From positions 1 through 64,000 of the forward strand of contig NZ_JADQTO010000014.1 in NCBI RefSeq assembly GCF_015704865.1: 64,000 nt of DNA, given 5' to 3'. Below are positions 31,937-38,790 of the stretch, piece after piece. This DNA comes from Actinoplanes aureus (GTDB taxonomy: Bacteria > Actinomycetota > Actinomycetes > Mycobacteriales > Micromonosporaceae). The notes beneath the pieces were generated by a model. The model searched no databases and was not told where the DNA came from. It worked only from the letters and a program-made list of their open reading frames with translations. Position numbers and translations under genes: made by a program. How positions within the stretch are numbered: position 1 is the first letter of the stretch; each line of letters opens with the position of its first letter.

Positions 31937-32112
31937 ACGGTACGACGTAACGGTTGCGTTCCGCCGTTTGGTCAGCTACCGTCTACATACACGTCGATAC
32001 GAACCCGTTCCATCGGTGTCGGTGGGTGCCTGTCATGCTGCTAGCTGTGTTCTCGCGCAAGTCACCGGAACCCGCTGCCTCCTACGGGCCGACAAGATCG
32101 GAGCACCACCCC

Positions 32113-33009
32113 ATGCCAGAGACGGCGGTCGCCGACACCGGCGCCGGGCTCTCTCTCAAGGAGCTGGCCCGGCGACACGGCCTGAGTGCATCGGGACGGC
32201 TGCCCAGCCTCCCGGAGTACACCCGGTATCTGTGGTCCTACCGGCACTTCATCCGCGCGCACTCGAGCGCCCGGACGAGCTCGGCACTGGGCCACACCAG
32301 GCTCGGCATGCTGTGGCAGGTCCTCACTCCGATGATCAACGCCGCGGTCTACTACGTGATCTTCGGCGTGATCCTGGGCGGCCGGAACGGTGTCGACAAC
32401 TTCATCGCGTACCTCTGCGCCGGCGTCTTCGTCTTCGGCTTCACCCAGGCCGTGGTGGGGCAGGGCAGCAACGCGATCACCGGCAACCTCGGCCTGATCC
32501 GGGCTCTGCACTTCCCGCGGGGCAGCCTGCCGCTGTCGGTGGTCCTGGTGGAGGTCCGCAACTACGTCGTGGCGCTGTTGGTGCTGATGGGGATCGTGCT
32601 GCTCACCGGTGAGCCGATCACCCCGCAGTGGCTGCTGCTCATCCCGGTGGTGTTCCTGCACTCGATCTTCAACACCGGCCTGACGATGTTCATGGCCCGC
32701 TTCGGCTCCAAGGTCCGCGACATCAAGCAGCTGATCCCGTTCATCATGCGGTTCTGGCTGTACGGGTCGGCAGTGCTCTACCCGGTGACCCTGTTCGAGC
32801 AGCACCTCGACGGCTGGGCGCTCGCCCTGGTCGAGGCGAATCCGCTGCTCATCTTCATCGAGCTGACGCGGCACTCGCTGATGGAGGACGTCCCGCTGGC
32901 CGGTAACCCGACCCTGCTCTGGATCCAGGCGGTCGTCTGGACCGTCGTGGTGAGCATCGGCGGCTACATCTACTTCTGGCGCGGAGAGAAGGGCTACGGC
33001 CGTGGCTGA
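32113..33009 (+). CDS. ABC-2 type polysaccharide exporter permease (Wzm/TagG-like)
   Basis: A 298-residue membrane subunit with six hydrophobic segments from residue 70 to 290. The N-terminus is long and cytosolic (YRHFIRAHSSARTSSALGHTRLGMLW, typical of Wzm/TagG/RfbA-type permeases), and ALHFPRGSLPLSVVLVEVRN after TM3 is a family signature. With the ATPase it would pass a lipid-linked glycan or teichoic acid-like polymer over the membrane. ATG 32113 has GGAG nine bases upstream; the frame is open to 31954. The ATPase gene overlaps its 3' end by eight bases. Confidence 0.92.
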   Translation: MPETAVADTGAGLSLKELARRHGLSASGRLPSLPEYTRYLWSYRHFIRAHSSARTSSALGHTRLGMLWQVLTPMINAAVYYVIFGVILGGRNGVDNFIAYLCAGVFVFGFTQAVVGQGSNAITGNLGLIRALHFPRGSLPLSVVLVEVRNYVVALLVLMGIVLLTGEPITPQWLLLIPVVFLHSIFNTGLTMFMARFGSKVRDIKQLIPFIMRFWLYGSAVLYPVTLFEQHLDGWALALVEANPLLIFIELTRHSLMEDVPLAGNPTLLWIQAVVWTVVVSIGGYIYFWRGEKGYGRG

Positions 33010-33775
33010 GACCGAACGCGTTCCCACCGTCATCTCGGACAACGCCCATGTGATCTACCAGGTGCACGGCTCGTCGGGACCGGGCAACAACAGCCCGCTG
33101 GCCAGCCTCAAGCGGCTGGTGACCAACACCAAGGCGGCGAACGTACGCGAGGTGCACGCCGTCAAGGGCGTCAGCTTCGTGGCGTACCGGGGTGAGGCGA
33201 TCGGTCTGATCGGCAGCAACGGTTCGGGCAAGTCGACCCTGCTGCGCGCGGTCGCCGGCCTGCTCCCGGTCGCCAAGGGCAAGATCTACGCGGCCGGCCA
33301 GCCCTCGCTGCTGGGCGTGAACGCGGCGCTGATGAACGATCTGCCCGGCGAGCGCAACGTCGAGCTGGGCTGCCTGGCGATGGGCATGTCCCCGGCCGAG
33401 GTGAAGGCGAAGAAGGACGACATCATCGCGTTCTCCGGCATCAACGAGCGGGGCGACTTCTCCTCGCTGCCGATGCGGACCTACTCCTCCGGCATGGCCG
33501 CGCGCCTCAAGTTCTCCATCGCCGCCGCGAAGCAGCACGACGTCCTGCTCATCGACGAGGCGCTGGCCACCGGCGACGCGAAGTTCCGCCGCCGCAGTGA
33601 GCAGCGGGTGCGTGAGCTACGCGCTCAGGCCGGCACGGTGTTCCTGGTGAGCCACAGCGAGCAGTCGATCCGGGACACCTGCGACCGCTGCATCTGGCTC
33701 GAGTCGGGTCTGATCCGGGCCGACGGCCCGACCGAGGACGTGCTGCGGGAGTACGAGGCCTTCGCTCGCAAGTAA
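33002..33775 (+). CDS. ABC transporter ATPase (Wzt/TagH-like)
   Basis: A 257-residue ATPase with Walker A GSNGSGKST (71-79), ABC signature TYSSGMAARLKF, Walker B DVLLIDEALATGD and switch His in LVSHSEQS. This pattern (RTYSSGMAARL, DEALATGD) belongs to the O-antigen and teichoic acid export ATPases. It lacks the C-terminal glycan-binding domain of long Wzt proteins. GTG 33002 overlaps the permease gene. The last codons form the 5' arm of a terminator hairpin. Confidence 0.94.
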   Translation: MAETERVPTVISDNAHVIYQVHGSSGPGNNSPLASLKRLVTNTKAANVREVHAVKGVSFVAYRGEAIGLIGSNGSGKSTLLRAVAGLLPVAKGKIYAAGQPSLLGVNAALMNDLPGERNVELGCLAMGMSPAEVKAKKDDIIAFSGINERGDFSSLPMRTYSSGMAARLKFSIAAAKQHDVLLIDEALATGDAKFRRRSEQRVRELRAQAGTVFLVSHSEQSIRDTCDRCIWLESGLIRADGPTEDVLREYEAFARK

Positions 33776-33799: not shown

Positions 33800-34852
33800 T
33801 CAGTTGACCGAGAGATGCACGTGGTTGGTGTGGTCGCTGGACGGGTCACCACCCGCCCCGCTGTACGACTTCCAGCCACTGCTCGGCAGCCAGATCCGGC
33901 GGAACCAGATCACGTAGAGCACCTGCAACTCGTCGGCGTTGTTGATGAAGTAGTTCGCCAGGTTGTTGCCGTAGGTCTTGTCGCCACCCGTGGCATCGCC
34001 GCCGAAGGTGTTCTTCTCGGCGGAGAAGTCACAGGCCCGGCCCTTCGGATGCTCACCGCTGTTCTGCTCGCGGAAGCACCGCGTGAACCGGGTGAACCCG
34101 TCCTGCCTTGCCTGCTTGAGCGCGTGCAGCATGCGCGGCGTGAGACAGCCGCTGGTGGTCGGGTCGCCCTCGGTGCAACCGCCGCCGCCGCTCGGCGCCG
34201 GGTCGGCCGAGGCGCTGCCTCCGCCGCTGCTGCTGCCGCCGCCGTCGCCGGGCTCGGAGGCGTCCTCGCCCTGGTTCGCCGCCTTGAGCGCGGTCTCCGC
34301 CTGAGCCTTCCGCTTGGCCATCACGTTGACCTGCTTCTGCTCGTCACGGACCGCCGCGTCGATGGCGATCTTGGCGCGCTGCTGAGCCTCGCGGGTGTTC
34401 TTCAGGTCGGCGATCGCCGCGTTCTGCTGCGCTGCCACCGTGGCGAGCGTTTCGGCCCGGTCCAGGAAGGTGTCGGTGGAGTTCGCGGTGATCAGGGCGG
34501 ACATCGGGCCGAGCCGGCCCGAGGTGTACGCCTGCTGCGCGATCTCGTCCAGGGCCTTCTGCTGCGGACCGAGGGAGGCGTCGAGCCGCTTCAGCTCCGC
34601 GGCCAGATCGGCCTGCCGCTGCTTGGACTTCTTCAGCTTGGCCTTGGCGTCGACGAAACCGCTGGAGGCCGCTTCGAGTTGTTCGATGAGGGACTTGGAA
34701 CCGCCCTCACCGTCGTCGCCGGTGTCGCCCGGCGCAGCGAGGGGATGGGGGGCAGCGGTGGCCGGCGTCGCCGCGACGGCCAGCCCGCACACGGCGACGA
34801 GCAGCGCCATCAACGCTGCTAATCGCCGCGCAGTCGAATCCTGCACAGGCAT
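33800..34852 (-). CDS. Secreted coiled-coil protein with LAS-peptidase-like C-terminal domain (c-di-AMP riboswitch-controlled)
   Basis: A 350-residue exported protein: signal peptide (to about 34), a long coiled coil (about 50-205) as in CwlO/RipA-like wall hydrolases, a Gly/Ser-rich linker, and a C-terminal domain of the ARB_07466-like type. The domain has CLTPRMLHALKQAR, GEHPKGRACDF and DHTNHVHLSVN. Histidine and aspartate in H-x6-D plus H-x-H stand exactly as the zinc ligands of LAS peptidases (VanX, MEROPS M15/M74), so it may cut peptidoglycan; that is inference. The ATG lies only two bases after GGAAGG, and GTG 34846 is better spaced. The leader is a c-di-AMP riboswitch. A divergent paralogue starts at 35336. 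Confidence 0.82.
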   Translation of the reverse strand: MPVQDSTARRLAALMALLVAVCGLAVAATPATAAPHPLAAPGDTGDDGEGGSKSLIEQLEAASSGFVDAKAKLKKSKQRQADLAAELKRLDASLGPQQKALDEIAQQAYTSGRLGPMSALITANSTDTFLDRAETLATVAAQQNAAIADLKNTREAQQRAKIAIDAAVRDEQKQVNVMAKRKAQAETALKAANQGEDASEPGDGGGSSSGGGSASADPAPSGGGGCTEGDPTTSGCLTPRMLHALKQARQDGFTRFTRCFREQNSGEHPKGRACDFSAEKNTFGGDATGGDKTYGNNLANYFINNADELQVLYVIWFRRIWLPSSGWKSYSGAGGDPSSDHTNHVHLSVN

Positions 34853-34864
34853 TTCCTTCCGTCG

Positions 34865-34981
34865 GCCGCCGACCGGGTTAGCTGACGGGTTCGGGACGAA
34901 GGAAATCCCTACCGCATTCGCGGATTCACCCCGGAGAAATGTGGTTCCCCGGCTCGCCGCAACGGGCGATTAGGCGGCGGT
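34865..34981 (-). promoter_or_regulatory. c-di-AMP (ydaO-yuaA) riboswitch, minus-strand copy
   Basis: Read on the minus strand, the leader shows the ydaO-yuaA aptamer core in order: GAGCCGGGGAACCA, CCGGGGTGAATCCGCG, GCGGTAGGGA, then CCCGAACCCGTCAGCTAACC and closing GGTCGGCGG, which can pair with the 5' CCGCC. The last blocks are the most conserved of the family. Class members bind cyclic di-AMP, and in actinobacteria they stand before wall-remodelling enzymes such as Rpf and NlpC/P60. Only about 13 bases separate it from the start codon, leaving no room for a downstream terminator. Confidence 0.92.
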
Positions 34982-35198
34982 CCCCGGGTGGGAACCGGAT
35001 CCGACCATACCGACTACATCGACAGATCGACAGTTCTCGTACGCTCGGCTATTACCTGAACACGGCACGTGATTCGATTACAGAAAGTCGTTGTCCGGTA
35101 ACTCTTTTTGTAGTTCCGTGGGTCCTGATGCACGGCGATATCTCGGGTAAACTGGCCGCCGGTCCTGCCAGGACGGCACCGCCCCCGAGTTGCCGGCA

Positions 35199-35313
35199 GG
35201 CCGCCGCCCAATCGTCGAAAGGCGAGCCGGGGAACCAGGTCACTGGGGTGAATCCGCTTTACGCGGTAGGGATTGCTTCCGTCCCGAACCCGTCAGCTAA
35301 CTCGGTCGGCGGT
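35199..35313 (+). promoter_or_regulatory. c-di-AMP (ydaO-yuaA) riboswitch, plus-strand copy
   Basis: The second copy faces the other way: GAGCCGGGGAACCAGG, TGGGGTGAATCCGC, GCGGTAGGGATTGC, CCCGAACCCGTCAGCTAACT and closing GGTCGGCGG. It aligns over its full length with the minus-strand copy, with small indels in the variable loops only. The AAGGAAGGA ribosome site of the 342-residue gene starts four bases after it. The region between the two aptamers (34982-35198) must hold both promoters. Confidence 0.93.
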
Positions 35314-35335
35314 GACAAGGAAGGAACAACTGTTG

Positions 35336-36364
35336 ATGACCGCAAGTCCCCGCCGGTGGCTGACGTTTGCCCTGGCACCGCTCGTGGCCGTTGCGCTGTT
35401 CGTGGCACCCGTCACAATGGCGTCCGCGGCTCCCGGTGGCAGTACACCGACTGCCGAGGACGAGGAAGACGCCCTGATGTCGGACCTGATGGAGTCGACG
35501 AACCGTCGCTTCGTCAACGCGAAGGCTGCCGTCACCGTGTCCCGGAAGAACCAGAAGAAGCTGGCCGCCGACATGGCGGCCGCCGAGGCCCGGCGCGACG
35601 TCCTCATTCCCGAGGTCAACTCGATCGCCCGGCAGCAGTACCAGACCGGCGACCTCAGCGCCGTCGGCTTCCTGCTCAACGCCAGCACGTCGGACGATTT
35701 CATGAGCAAGGCGATCTCCCTGGAGGAGATCAACCGGTTGCACGACGGAAAGCTGCGCGAGCTCAACCAGGCGATCGCCACGGTCACCGAGAAGAAGACC
35801 GCGCTCGACGCCGAGGTCAAGAACGAGCAGCAGCAGCTGACCGCGCTGGCCAAGCAGAAGTCCGCCGCCGAGAAACAGATCGACCTGCTGGGCGGCTCGA
35901 CCGGCATCAACCGGACCATCAACGAAGGCCTGGTCGACGCCAAGTCGAAGGAAGCCGCCCCGGCTCCGCGCAACGCCAACGGCGGGTTCTCCGCCGAGGG
36001 GTGCACCGAGCGGGACGAGACCACCAGCGGCTGTGTGACCAAACGCACTCTGCACATGTACAAGGAAGTGCGCAAGGCCGGCTTCAAACGCTTCGTCGGC
36101 TGTCACCGCAACGGCGGACCGTTCGAGCATCCCAAGGGCCGGGCCTGCGACTGGTCCCTGCAGAAGAGCGGCTTCTCCTCGGCGGACAGCACCGACGAGA
36201 TGAAGTACGGCAACAACCTGACCGCGTTCCTGGTGCGCAACGCCGACCGTCTCGGCATCTACTACGTCATCTGGTACAAGCAGATCTGGTTCCCGGCGAC
36301 CGGCTGGGATTCGTACAGCGGGGTCAGTGACCACACCGACCACGTCCACGTCTCGATGCTCTAG
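35336..36364 (+). CDS. Secreted coiled-coil protein with LAS-peptidase-like C-terminal domain, paralogue (c-di-AMP riboswitch-controlled)
   Basis: A 342-residue paralogue of the divergent gene at 33800-34852. Signal peptide (RRWLTFALAPLVAVALFVAP, cleaved after ASA), coiled coil about 45-200 (VNAKAAVTVSRKNQKKLAAD and more), then a C-terminal domain with CVTKRTLHMYKEVRKAGF, FEHPKGRACDWS, YGNNLTAFLVRN and DHTDHVHVSML. The H-x6-D and H-x-H ligand set is kept. It lacks the Gly/Ser-rich linker of its partner. ATG 35336 is preceded by AAGGAAGGA. Both the coding and riboswitch parts were duplicated and inverted. A terminator follows the stop at once. Confidence 0.85.
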   Translation: MTASPRRWLTFALAPLVAVALFVAPVTMASAAPGGSTPTAEDEEDALMSDLMESTNRRFVNAKAAVTVSRKNQKKLAADMAAAEARRDVLIPEVNSIARQQYQTGDLSAVGFLLNASTSDDFMSKAISLEEINRLHDGKLRELNQAIATVTEKKTALDAEVKNEQQQLTALAKQKSAAEKQIDLLGGSTGINRTINEGLVDAKSKEAAPAPRNANGGFSAEGCTERDETTSGCVTKRTLHMYKEVRKAGFKRFVGCHRNGGPFEHPKGRACDWSLQKSGFSSADSTDEMKYGNNLTAFLVRNADRLGIYYVIWYKQIWFPATGWDSYSGVSDHTDHVHVSML

Positions 36365-36426: not shown

Positions 36427-38790
36427 TCAGTGCACGGCGCGGCGCACCGGTGCCCGGCCGGCCGGCTGGGCCGGCGCCGGGCCCACCGGGATCGGCGGCG
36501 GGATCGCCATGGTCACCGGCCGCACCTGGGTCACCTCGACCTCTTTGCCGTGGTGCAGCAGGGTGAGCCGGGCCTGGCCACCGCCGTTGCGCAGCGAGTA
36601 GGTGACCTCCTCTGCGGTCACGTTCACCCGCAGTCGCAGGCCGCGCCAGAGCAGCGAGAACTCCAGGTTGTTGATCCGGCTGGGCAGGCGCGGGGCGAAG
36701 CTGAGCTGACCGTTGAAGTCACGCATGCCACCGAGGCCGGCGACCAGCGCGATCCAGGACCCGGCCAGCGACGCCACGTGCACGCCGTCACGGGCGTTGC
36801 GGTGCAGGTCGTGCAGGTCCATCAGGGCGGCCTCGCCCAGGTAGTCGTGCGCCAGCTCCAGGTGCCCGGTCTCGGCGGCCAGCACGGCCTGGATGCAGGC
36901 GGACAGCGACGAGTCCCGTACGGTCCGCGCGTCGTAGTAGGCGAAGTTGCGCGCCTTCTCCTCCGGCGTGAACGCGTCACCCCGGATGTACATCGCCATC
37001 ACCAGGTCGGCCTGCTTGATCACCTGCTTGCGGTACAGGTCGAAGTACGGGTAGTTCAGCAGCAGCGGGTACCCCTCCGGCGGAGTGTTCTCGAAGTCCC
37101 ACTCCTGCAGCCGGGTGAAGCCCTCGCACTGCTGGTGCACGCCCAGCTCCCGGTCGTACGGGATGTGCACGGCGGCCGCCGCGTCCCGCCAGGACGCCGC
37201 CTCCTCGTCGTCCACCCCGAACCGGCGGGCCAGGTCCGGGTGCCGCTTGCAGGCGTCCACCGCGGTCATCAGGTTCTGCTGGGCCATCAGGTTGGTGTAG
37301 ATGTTGTCGTTCACCACGGCGGTGTACTCGTCCGGCCCGGTGACGCCGTCGATGTGGAAGCGCCCGTGCCGGTCGTGGTGCCCGAGCGAGCGCCACAGCC
37401 GGGCGGTCTCGATCAGCAGCTCCAGGCCGACCTCACGCTCGAAGTCGTAGTCGCCGGTGGCCTGGACGTACCGGCGGACCGCGTCGGCGATGTCGGCGCC
37501 GATGTGGAAGCCGGCCGTACCGGCCGGCCAGTACCCCGAGCACTCCTGGCCACGGATCGTCCGCCAGGGGAACGCGGCGCCGTGCAGGCCGAGCGTCTGG
37601 GCCCGCTCCCGGGCCAGGTCCAGCGTCGAGTGACGCCAGCGCAGCACGTCGGCCGCGGCCGAGGGCTGGGTGTAGGTGAGGGCGGGCAGGACGAACGTCT
37701 CGGCGTCCCAGAACGTGTGTCCGTCGTACCCCGGCCCGGTGAGACCCTTCGAACCGATCGGGCGCTTCTCGGCCCGGGCACCGGCCTGGAGGGTGTGGAA
37801 GAGGCCGAAGCGGACCGCCTGCTGCACCTCGGGGTCGCCCTCGACCCGGACGTCGGAGTGGTCCCAGAACGCGTCCAGGTAGTCCTTCTGCTGCTGGACC
37901 AGCCCGTCCCAGCCGTCCAGGCGGGCACTGGCCAGAGCCGCGCCGACCTGGTCACGCAGCGCGGGCAGCGAGCGCATGCTGGACCACCCGTACGCCGCCA
38001 GCTTGACCACCCGCAGCTTCTGCCCCGGCTCCAGCCGGCAGGCGACCGTGGTCCGCAGCCAGTCGGGGTGCCCCTCGGTGGTGATGGCGTGCCGGCCCGG
38101 CGTCTCCACCAGATGTTCCATGGCCGAGGCCATCCGCAGGTCGCTCGCCTTGGTCCGGTGGATGAGGATGCCGCCGGCGGGCTGCTCCATCATCTCCTCG
38201 GCCTGCAGCGGCCGGTCCAGCACCGCCGCCACGCGCGGGTCCTTGCTCATCGGCGGGAGCTGCTCGTTCGCCACCAGCTCGGACTGCAGGATGAGCCGGG
38301 CCGCGCCGTCCAGCGGCTCCACCTCGTAGAGGAACGCGACCACCGCACGCTGGGTGAACGAGACCAGCCGCACGGTACGAACGCGCACACCCTGACCCGA
38401 CGGGGACACCCACTCGACGACCCGCTCCAGCGTGCCGGCCCGCAGGTCCAGGCAGCGCTCGTGGGAGCGCAGCTCGCCGTACCGCACGTCGAACGGCTCG
38501 TCGTCCACCAGCAGGCGCATCAGCTTGGCGTTGGTGACGTTGACCATGGTCTGGCCGGATTCCGGGAAGCCGTACCCGCCCTCGGCGTGCGGCAGTGGCC
38601 GCAGCTCGTAGAACGAGTTGAGGTAGCTGCCGGGCAGGCCGTGCGGCTCGCCCTCGTCCAGGTTTCCCCGTATCCCGATGTGGCCGTTCGAGAGCGCGAA
38701 CACCGACTCGGACTGGGCCAGCAGGTCCAGATCCAGCCGGGTCTCCCGGATGTGCCAAGGGTCGACGGGGTAGGCCCGTTCACGGATCAC
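36427..38790 (-). CDS. GH65 disaccharide phosphorylase (maltose/trehalose/kojibiose type)
   Basis: A 787-residue family GH65 enzyme, which cleaves alpha-glucosides with phosphate and releases beta-glucose 1-phosphate. The general acid Glu lies in GVTGPDEYTAVVNDN. Other conserved points are SNGHIGIRGNLDEG at the N-terminal beta-sandwich, GYDGHTFWDAETFVLP in the (alpha/alpha)6 barrel, and KQVIKQADLVMAM before the C-terminal sheet. A proline-rich tail of about 30 residues is extra. GTG 38790 has GAGAGG upstream. The beta-phosphoglucomutase-type gene directly upstream would convert the product to glucose 6-phosphate. Which disaccharide it prefers cannot be read by eye. Confidence 0.93.
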   Translation of the reverse strand: MIRERAYPVDPWHIRETRLDLDLLAQSESVFALSNGHIGIRGNLDEGEPHGLPGSYLNSFYELRPLPHAEGGYGFPESGQTMVNVTNAKLMRLLVDDEPFDVRYGELRSHERCLDLRAGTLERVVEWVSPSGQGVRVRTVRLVSFTQRAVVAFLYEVEPLDGAARLILQSELVANEQLPPMSKDPRVAAVLDRPLQAEEMMEQPAGGILIHRTKASDLRMASAMEHLVETPGRHAITTEGHPDWLRTTVACRLEPGQKLRVVKLAAYGWSSMRSLPALRDQVGAALASARLDGWDGLVQQQKDYLDAFWDHSDVRVEGDPEVQQAVRFGLFHTLQAGARAEKRPIGSKGLTGPGYDGHTFWDAETFVLPALTYTQPSAAADVLRWRHSTLDLARERAQTLGLHGAAFPWRTIRGQECSGYWPAGTAGFHIGADIADAVRRYVQATGDYDFEREVGLELLIETARLWRSLGHHDRHGRFHIDGVTGPDEYTAVVNDNIYTNLMAQQNLMTAVDACKRHPDLARRFGVDDEEAASWRDAAAAVHIPYDRELGVHQQCEGFTRLQEWDFENTPPEGYPLLLNYPYFDLYRKQVIKQADLVMAMYIRGDAFTPEEKARNFAYYDARTVRDSSLSACIQAVLAAETGHLELAHDYLGEAALMDLHDLHRNARDGVHVASLAGSWIALVAGLGGMRDFNGQLSFAPRLPSRINNLEFSLLWRGLRLRVNVTAEEVTYSLRNGGGQARLTLLHHGKEVEVTQVRPVTMAIPPPIPVGPAPAQPAGRAPVRRAVH

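Follow-up and report, generated by a model that had tools for sequence, protein, structure and literature searches.

Wall hydrolase regulons governed by riboswitches for cyclic di-adenosine monophosphate (c-di-AMP) are already known in actinobacteria, and for Streptomyces seven and six wall hydrolases with such switches have been described (PMC10117811). The closest described systems are rpfA of Streptomyces coelicolor and nlpC of Corynebacterium glutamicum, which share aptamer class, kind of target, and the lack of a canonical terminator with the locus considered here (PMC9960051, PMC10117811). How terminator-less c-di-AMP riboswitches of actinobacteria act is unsettled in these papers, with termination reported for Streptomyces rpfA and translation for Corynebacterium nlpC. 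The rpfA and nlpC targets carry Rpf or NlpC/P60 domains, whereas in the 64,000-nucleotide stretch of Actinoplanes aureus that we analyzed (contig NZ_JADQTO010000014.1, positions 1 to 64,000; the window) two back-to-back switches stand over two paralogous genes, P and M, with a domain of the VldE type. We consider it probable that this divergent riboswitch pair, with a promoter for each switch, shuts off the translation of two secreted proteins of the peptidoglycan endopeptidase kind.

On the protein side, VldE (Spr1875) of Streptococcus pneumoniae is a zinc L,D-endopeptidase whose zinc is bound by H301, D308, and H375, which needs H370, D372, and H373, and whose R294 presumably stabilizes the transition state; the exchange D372A abolished activity (PMC11667670). 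The fold of its C-terminal domain and its zinc ligands are common to VldE, P, and M. VldE has a putative wall-binding module, in place of which P and M carry a coiled coil, and it is under VicRK control, whereas P and M lie behind a c-di-AMP switch. The VldE type (MT3, LAS-like) is marked by hydrolysis of the L-Ala-D-Glu bond. Mycobacterium RipC, an NlpC/P60 hydrolase solved with FtsEX, resembles P and M in its N-terminal coiled coil, but its catalytic domain belongs to another family.

A Conserved Pair of Divergent c-di-AMP Aptamers

A scan of the whole window with cmscan (64,000 bases, both strands, 4227 Rfam families, gathering thresholds) gave exactly two matches, both to the c-di-AMP (ydaO/yuaA) family RF00379, and each stands before an open reading frame:

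35195-35326, plus strand: c-di-AMP riboswitch aptamer of gene P (90.7 bits, E 5.8e-20, model positions 1-134 of 134)
34851-34986, minus strand: c-di-AMP riboswitch aptamer of gene M (89.5 bits, E 1.2e-19, model positions 1-134 of 134)
35336-36364, plus strand: gene P, open reading frame with ATG start at 35336; predicted coiled coil and VldE-type domain, 342 aa
33800-34846, minus strand: gene M, open reading frame with the start set by comparison; predicted coiled coil and VldE-like domain, 348 aa from GTG 34846

Both aptamers are full-length, score more than twice the curated cut-off of 38 bits, and diverge with their 5′ ends 208 bp apart. A sequence-only reading of this DNA had placed two head-to-head ydaO-yuaA aptamers at 35199-35313 and 34981-34865, limits that fall inside the covariance-model matches. 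It had also assigned to each aptamer a coiled-coil paralogue of the wall-hydrolase kind; this holds as well, with the hydrolase assignment now made through the VldE-type endopeptidase domain. P and M are paralogues with 36% identity over 346 columns (BLASTP, E 1e-68), and their hydrophobic N-termini suggest that both are exported. The open frame of M begins upstream of GTG 34846, at ATG 34852; the GTG is the likely start, since locus L037, for one, keeps the GTG but not the ATG.

Related loci were taken from named genomes searched with both proteins and are the best 80 of 445 stretches encoding a relative, hence no census; aptamers in them were sought with a covariance model built from 22 aptamers. 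Both aptamers were found in 45 of the 80, with the P and M paralogues in matching order (tblastn). These twin loci come from Actinoplanes, Paractinoplanes, Winogradskya, Couchioplanes, Spirilliplanes, and other relatives. The remaining 35 loci comprise 24 with one aptamer and one such gene (Micromonospora, Verrucosispora, Plantactinospora, and four Asanoa loci), L052, in which no M aptamer was found, and 10 without an aptamer match. Two divergent RF00379 matches at most 0.5 kb apart were further present in 44 of 45 same-genus genomes, A. aureus included; this count, of aptamer pairs irrespective of the genes behind them, combines 42 genomes read by eye from the listed rows with two more. The exception, G228, has six RF00379 matches, each on a separate contig, and no pair. 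As the A. aureus genome has six RF00379 matches in 10.74 Mb and the pair recurs in relatives, a chance origin of the pair is very unlikely.

All six switches of the A. aureus genome lead predicted wall hydrolases, i.e., two NlpC/P60 proteins, two transglycosylase-like proteins with LysM, which we take to be Rpf-type, and the twins. The twins thus add to a c-di-AMP regulon of wall hydrolases that is already in place. The same genome has one match to the diadenylate cyclase domain (PF02457).

Loop and Tail of the Aptamer Covary over the Shine–Dalgarno Sequence

In both leaders, a hairpin loop of the aptamer is complementary to a tail strand at the Shine–Dalgarno sequence:

34898-34905, minus strand: pseudoknot 5′ strand of M, UUUCCUUC, in a hairpin loop
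34852-34859, minus strand: pseudoknot 3′ strand of M, GAAGGAAA, overlapping the Shine–Dalgarno tract GGAAGGAA (34860-34853)
35276-35280, plus strand: pseudoknot 5′ strand of P, CUUCC, in a hairpin loop
35319-35323, plus strand: pseudoknot 3′ strand of P, GGAAG, inside the Shine–Dalgarno tract CAAGGAAGGA (35316-35325)

The strands form 8 Watson–Crick pairs in M and 5 in P, with pseudoknot energies of -10.5 and -8.3 kcal/mol, respectively. The sequence-only reading had suggested that slight differences in loop bases could shift the set-points; the concrete difference seen between the two switches lies in this pseudoknot. Among 46 twin loci (the 45 and the window), which are related and not independent, the stronger pseudoknot belongs to M in 32 and to P in 11, and the two are equal in 3. 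Of 121 aptamers, 120 have a tail strand that shares 3 nt or more with the predicted anti-Shine–Dalgarno-binding site (exception: the minus-strand aptamer of L079).

Pairing was compared between own and swapped tails in 90 distinct aptamers of many genes and families, which were left from 95 matches after the removal of duplicates and two cut-off matches. For 24 representatives under 75% identity, own loop–tail pairing was 5.54 bp compared to 4.49 ± 0.22 bp with swapped tails, and none of 1000 shuffles was as high; a rerun with 500 shuffles gave 5.54 versus 4.48, again with none as high. The full set of 90 yielded 5.67 versus 4.84 (0 of 500 shuffles as high). Control segments, namely three other hairpin loops and one junction, reached the own value in 361, 71, 243, and 164 of 500 shuffles. 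Loop and tail of the aptamer covary, and the four other aptamer segments do not. The helix is kept by differing pairs, including CUUCC/GGAAG, UUUCCUUC/GAAGGAAA, GUUCC/GGAAC (Asanoa), CCUCUC/GAGAGG, and AAAUCUUUC/GAAAGAUUU.

A pseudoknot is also found in the crystallized Tte ydaO RNA, which has CUCCUUCG in the loop and CGAAGGAG in the tail (PMC5393176); by our own reading, these two strands form that pseudoknot and occupy the same places as the strands in the window. For C. glutamicum nlpC, the authors proposed, as a theory, that CTCC of the riboswitch pairs with GGAG of the ribosome-binding site in a pseudoknot (PMC9960051), whereas the pairing here was examined across many sequences by covariation and with control segments.

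Translational Shut-Off or Transcription Termination

In the mechanism that we propose, binding of c-di-AMP would stabilize the pseudoknot between the loop of the last hairpin and the tail just 3′ of P1. The stabilized tail strand would mask the Shine–Dalgarno sequence, and ribosomes would be blocked because the two overlap, so that the enzyme would not be made. Upon a drop in c-di-AMP, P and M would be made together and the wall would be trimmed. Ligand binding, the OFF direction, and translational rather than transcriptional control are presumed in this scheme. Translational shut-off is favored because loop and tail covary, because no terminator-like site lies in 34700-35450, and because the related nlpC switch of C. 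glutamicum is a c-di-AMP OFF switch described as most likely translational (PMC9960051).

The same riboswitches could instead end transcription prematurely by a route other than an intrinsic terminator, perhaps pausing or Rho, and the Shine–Dalgarno overlap would then be a by-product. Premature termination in response to c-di-AMP was reported for rpfA of S. coelicolor (PMC10117811), so that a relative can use this class in another way, and in the C. glutamicum study the mere presence of the riboswitch lowered transcript levels (PMC9960051). We regard this explanation as unlikely here, given the lack of a terminator-like site in the searched interval and the translational assignment of nlpC. 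Moreover, the aptamer matches end 9 nt (P) and 4 nt (M) before the start codon, and 1-18 nt before it in the four other switches of the genome, which leaves little room for a separate platform.

Several points, the rpfA report among them, weigh against translational shut-off through the pseudoknot. At least five Watson–Crick pairs are reached by 76 of the 90 aptamers, but 14 have only 3-4, including L004 and L006 of the A. aureus genome, and in 6 of the 90 the longest pairing begins at tail position 15 or later, away from the place expected. The pairing of P comprises only 5 bp and ends 12 nt before the ATG. A purine-rich Shine–Dalgarno sequence and a pyrimidine-rich loop provide much complementarity for free (4.5 bp when swapped), and loop and tail shared by descent can inflate the swap test, which does not remove kinship. 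Nested folding, which is blind to pseudoknots, did not find the P leader more stable than expected (z 0.33); the value for the M leader was z -2.35, and neither was used as support. Finally, M has Asn where VldE needs Asp, which would make the enzymatic activity of M more doubtful.

Promoters and an Intergenic Box

Promoters were footprinted by alignment of the intergenic gap in the 46 twin loci:

35125-35153, plus strand: footprinted promoter of P, CTGATG (35125-35130), 17 nt, TAAACT (35148-35153)
35004-35033, minus strand: footprinted promoter of M, CTGTCG (35033-35028), 18 nt, TATGGT (35009-35004)
35083-35102, plus strand: box GAAAGTCGTTG-N4-GTAAC between the promoters, a possible activator site

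Two conserved promoter-like hexamer pairs suggest a separate promoter for each riboswitch. TANNNT is present in 46 of 46 loci on both sides; C, T, and G of the first hexamer are kept in 45, 46, and 45 of 46 for P, and the first hexamer of M in 37-45 of 46 per position. A simple sigma-70 consensus scan called no promoter in 34700-35450 and picked up neither footprinted one. The box is kept in only part of the group, since a strict pattern fits 26 of the 80 related loci, namely 20 of the 45 twin loci and the single-copy loci L083, L085, L111-L113, and L116. The consensus of the regulator MtrA is given as GTAACC-N5-GTAACC (PMC12323332). The window reads GTCGTT-N5-GTAACT, of which the second half alone fits, and we note a link to MtrA as a lead only.

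P and M Resemble VldE and RipC

Sequence profiles and models suggest that P and M combine a RipC-like coiled coil with a VldE-type zinc endopeptidase domain, with enzymatic activity predicted:

36014-36361, plus strand: predicted VldE-type domain of P, residues 227-342, with R258, H265, D272, H333, D335, H336, and H338
33803-34165, minus strand: predicted VldE-like domain of M, residues 228-348 of the GTG-start protein, with Asn in place of D335

A sequence profile built from 45 relatives matched the C-terminal domain of pneumococcal VldE (PDB 9flh, E 8.3e-10) and, in the other half, the coiled coil of Mycobacterium tuberculosis RipC (8idc chain E, E 5.9e-7). AlphaFold models (mean predicted local distance difference test score 78.9 for P and 81.3 for M) were aligned with 9flm by VIA-align, revealing Z 11.1 over 102 aligned residues for P (root-mean-square deviation 1.9, 26% identity) and Z 13.2 over 106 for M (2.0, 27%). 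Coiled-coil matches to the other half of the proteins reach similar Z in the same lists, so the profile match and the motifs carry the weight of the VldE assignment. The zinc ligands H301, D308, and H375 of VldE correspond to H265, D272, and H338 of P, and H370, H373, and R294 to H333, H336, and R258. All 128 proteins have equivalents of the five His and Asp residues H265, D272, H338, H333, and H336, and 127 of them have that of R258. Neither Pfam nor NCBIfam gave a family above its cut-off for P or M, PADLOC gave no match, and a whole-model Foldseek search for P returned none at E 0.001 or better, its rows being mostly coiled coils.

P and M differ at the position of VldE D372 (D335 in P), where all 47 P twins carry Asp and all 46 M twins carry Asn. 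Single copies have Asp in 27 and Asn in 8 cases (n = 35), and five outgroup rows as well as VldE itself carry Asp; the M protein of L039 (frame broken, 121 aa) is omitted from these counts and from the protein tree. As M lacks the essential Asp of VldE but retains the zinc ligands and two further essential His, we class it as VldE-like and not as a proven VldE-type member. A third full-length paralogue of the A. aureus genome (L119, C35:60518-61519) likewise has Asn at position 335, and its locus has no c-di-AMP aptamer match.

One consequence could be that M is no working endopeptidase at all, but an altered or inactive partner (a wall binder, competitor, or regulator) co-produced with active P. 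We see this as a possibility worth naming, though on balance it is rather unlikely. The invariant Asn of the M twins and the loss of VldE activity in D372A (PMC11667670) point in this direction. The residue tested in VldE was, however, Ala and not Asn, and D372 sits in the zinc-zipper loop of VldE, whose E368 has no counterpart in P either, according to our own reading of the alignment. Furthermore, the zinc ligands and the two other essential His are intact in all 46 M twins, and these are residues that pseudoenzymes often lose.

The locus might form a c-di-AMP-timed two-enzyme module, in which a canonical L,D-endopeptidase P and an Asn variant M respond at staggered thresholds set by pseudoknot strength, the device being general for terminator-less actinobacterial c-di-AMP riboswitches; this we put forward tentatively, and it is doubtful in its full extent. 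The covariation offers a concrete expression platform that is open to compensatory mutation, and the pair provides a natural internal control: switches of one class lie in the same cell with a shared promoter region but differ in pseudoknot strength, and a single catalytic residue sets their target enzymes consistently apart. The arrangement, a conserved c-di-AMP switch pair over wall hydrolases, appears to be new, and its parts are known. As far as the literature was searched, four points are new: that the back-to-back layout is stable, that the enzymes are of the VldE type, that Asp and Asn are fixed in P and M, respectively, and that covariation speaks for a pseudoknot on the Shine–Dalgarno sequence. 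Among the papers listed by searches on c-di-AMP or paired riboswitches, several of these lists being incomplete, none has a title or abstract opening describing such a pair; a published account elsewhere may exist.

Origin of the Pair

Head-to-head paralogues with paralogous leaders could have arisen by a recent local inverted duplication that left redundant dose copies, and a local inverted duplication was what the sequence-only reading had proposed. In a tree of 128 proteins, however, the M twins form one group (Shimodaira–Hasegawa-like approximate likelihood ratio test 100). The P twins cluster with single copies of Micromonospora, Plantactinospora, and Phytohabitans (support 99). A tree constrained to unite P and M twins is worse by 77.6 log units, and the approximately unbiased (AU) test rejects it (p-AU 0.00099; 35 of the proteins, 20 rows versus 15). 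Although this constraint was taken from the sequence-only reading, the tree was already known before the test, and long branches are present. With the exceptionless Asp/Asn split at position 335 in addition, we rejected recent duplication as a very improbable origin.

The related claim that regulator and gene were copied together fared better in part, given an aptamer tree that mostly separates the two sides. That tree has few columns and omits the L004-L006 aptamers. Its main split, with support of only 40/78, sorts 44 of 47 P aptamers and 37 of 46 M aptamers to their own sides and puts 3 P and 9 M aptamers on the opposite one; in addition, the P aptamer of L037 and the M aptamer of L072 share a fork (96/98). 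Aptamer and gene may thus have been copied together long ago.

Rooting on relatives from another family of the class placed the M twins beside other copies with weak support (87/55) and a flagged meeting of long branches. The root is therefore unsure, and either Asp or Asn may be the ancestral state within the family. The aptamer also precedes VldE-type genes in another family of the class (L151, L152, and L153), from which the link between switch and VldE-type gene is probably old; the class has three further VldE-type relatives (L154, L155, and L156) in which no aptamer was found. These comparisons favor a view of the pair as old paralogues that have stayed in head-to-head order.

Surroundings and Variants of the Locus

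The pair is flanked on both sides by conserved genes:

32074-33775, plus strand: ABC-2 permease and ABC ATPase genes (ATP-binding cassette exporter; PF01061, PF00005)
36427-38790, minus strand: glycoside hydrolase family 65 (GH65) enzyme gene, convergent with P (PF03632)

By tblastn, the exporter genes accompany 43 and the GH65 gene 42 of the 45 twin loci. In Asanoa (L111, L112, and L113), single Asn-type copies with an aptamer adjoin a GH65 gene, like the neighbor of P in the twin locus, so the position of the locus may predate the pair.

Several loci deviate from the common layout. L052 retains the M gene together with the leader end that carries the Shine–Dalgarno tract, and no M aptamer was found there, possibly a natural riboswitch deletion. 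In L099 (Micromonospora endophytica, upstream of 5001), the aptamer before a P-type gene seems by eye to have lost an internal stretch; its 3′ part still precedes the start codon, and the covariance model gives no match. Actinoplanes couchii has, besides the normal twin L047, two extra P-type copies (L041 and L056) with neither an aptamer match nor a divergent partner. Aptamer matches on the same strand and about 1.0-1.4 kb apart form tandems in two other genomes, at L017 (1-92 and 1501-1643) and L136 (360-511 and 1501-1641). The M aptamers of L046 (4441-4654) and L110 (4439-4656), both on the minus strand, measure 214 and 218 nt and contain a large insert compared to the approximately 135 nt of most others.

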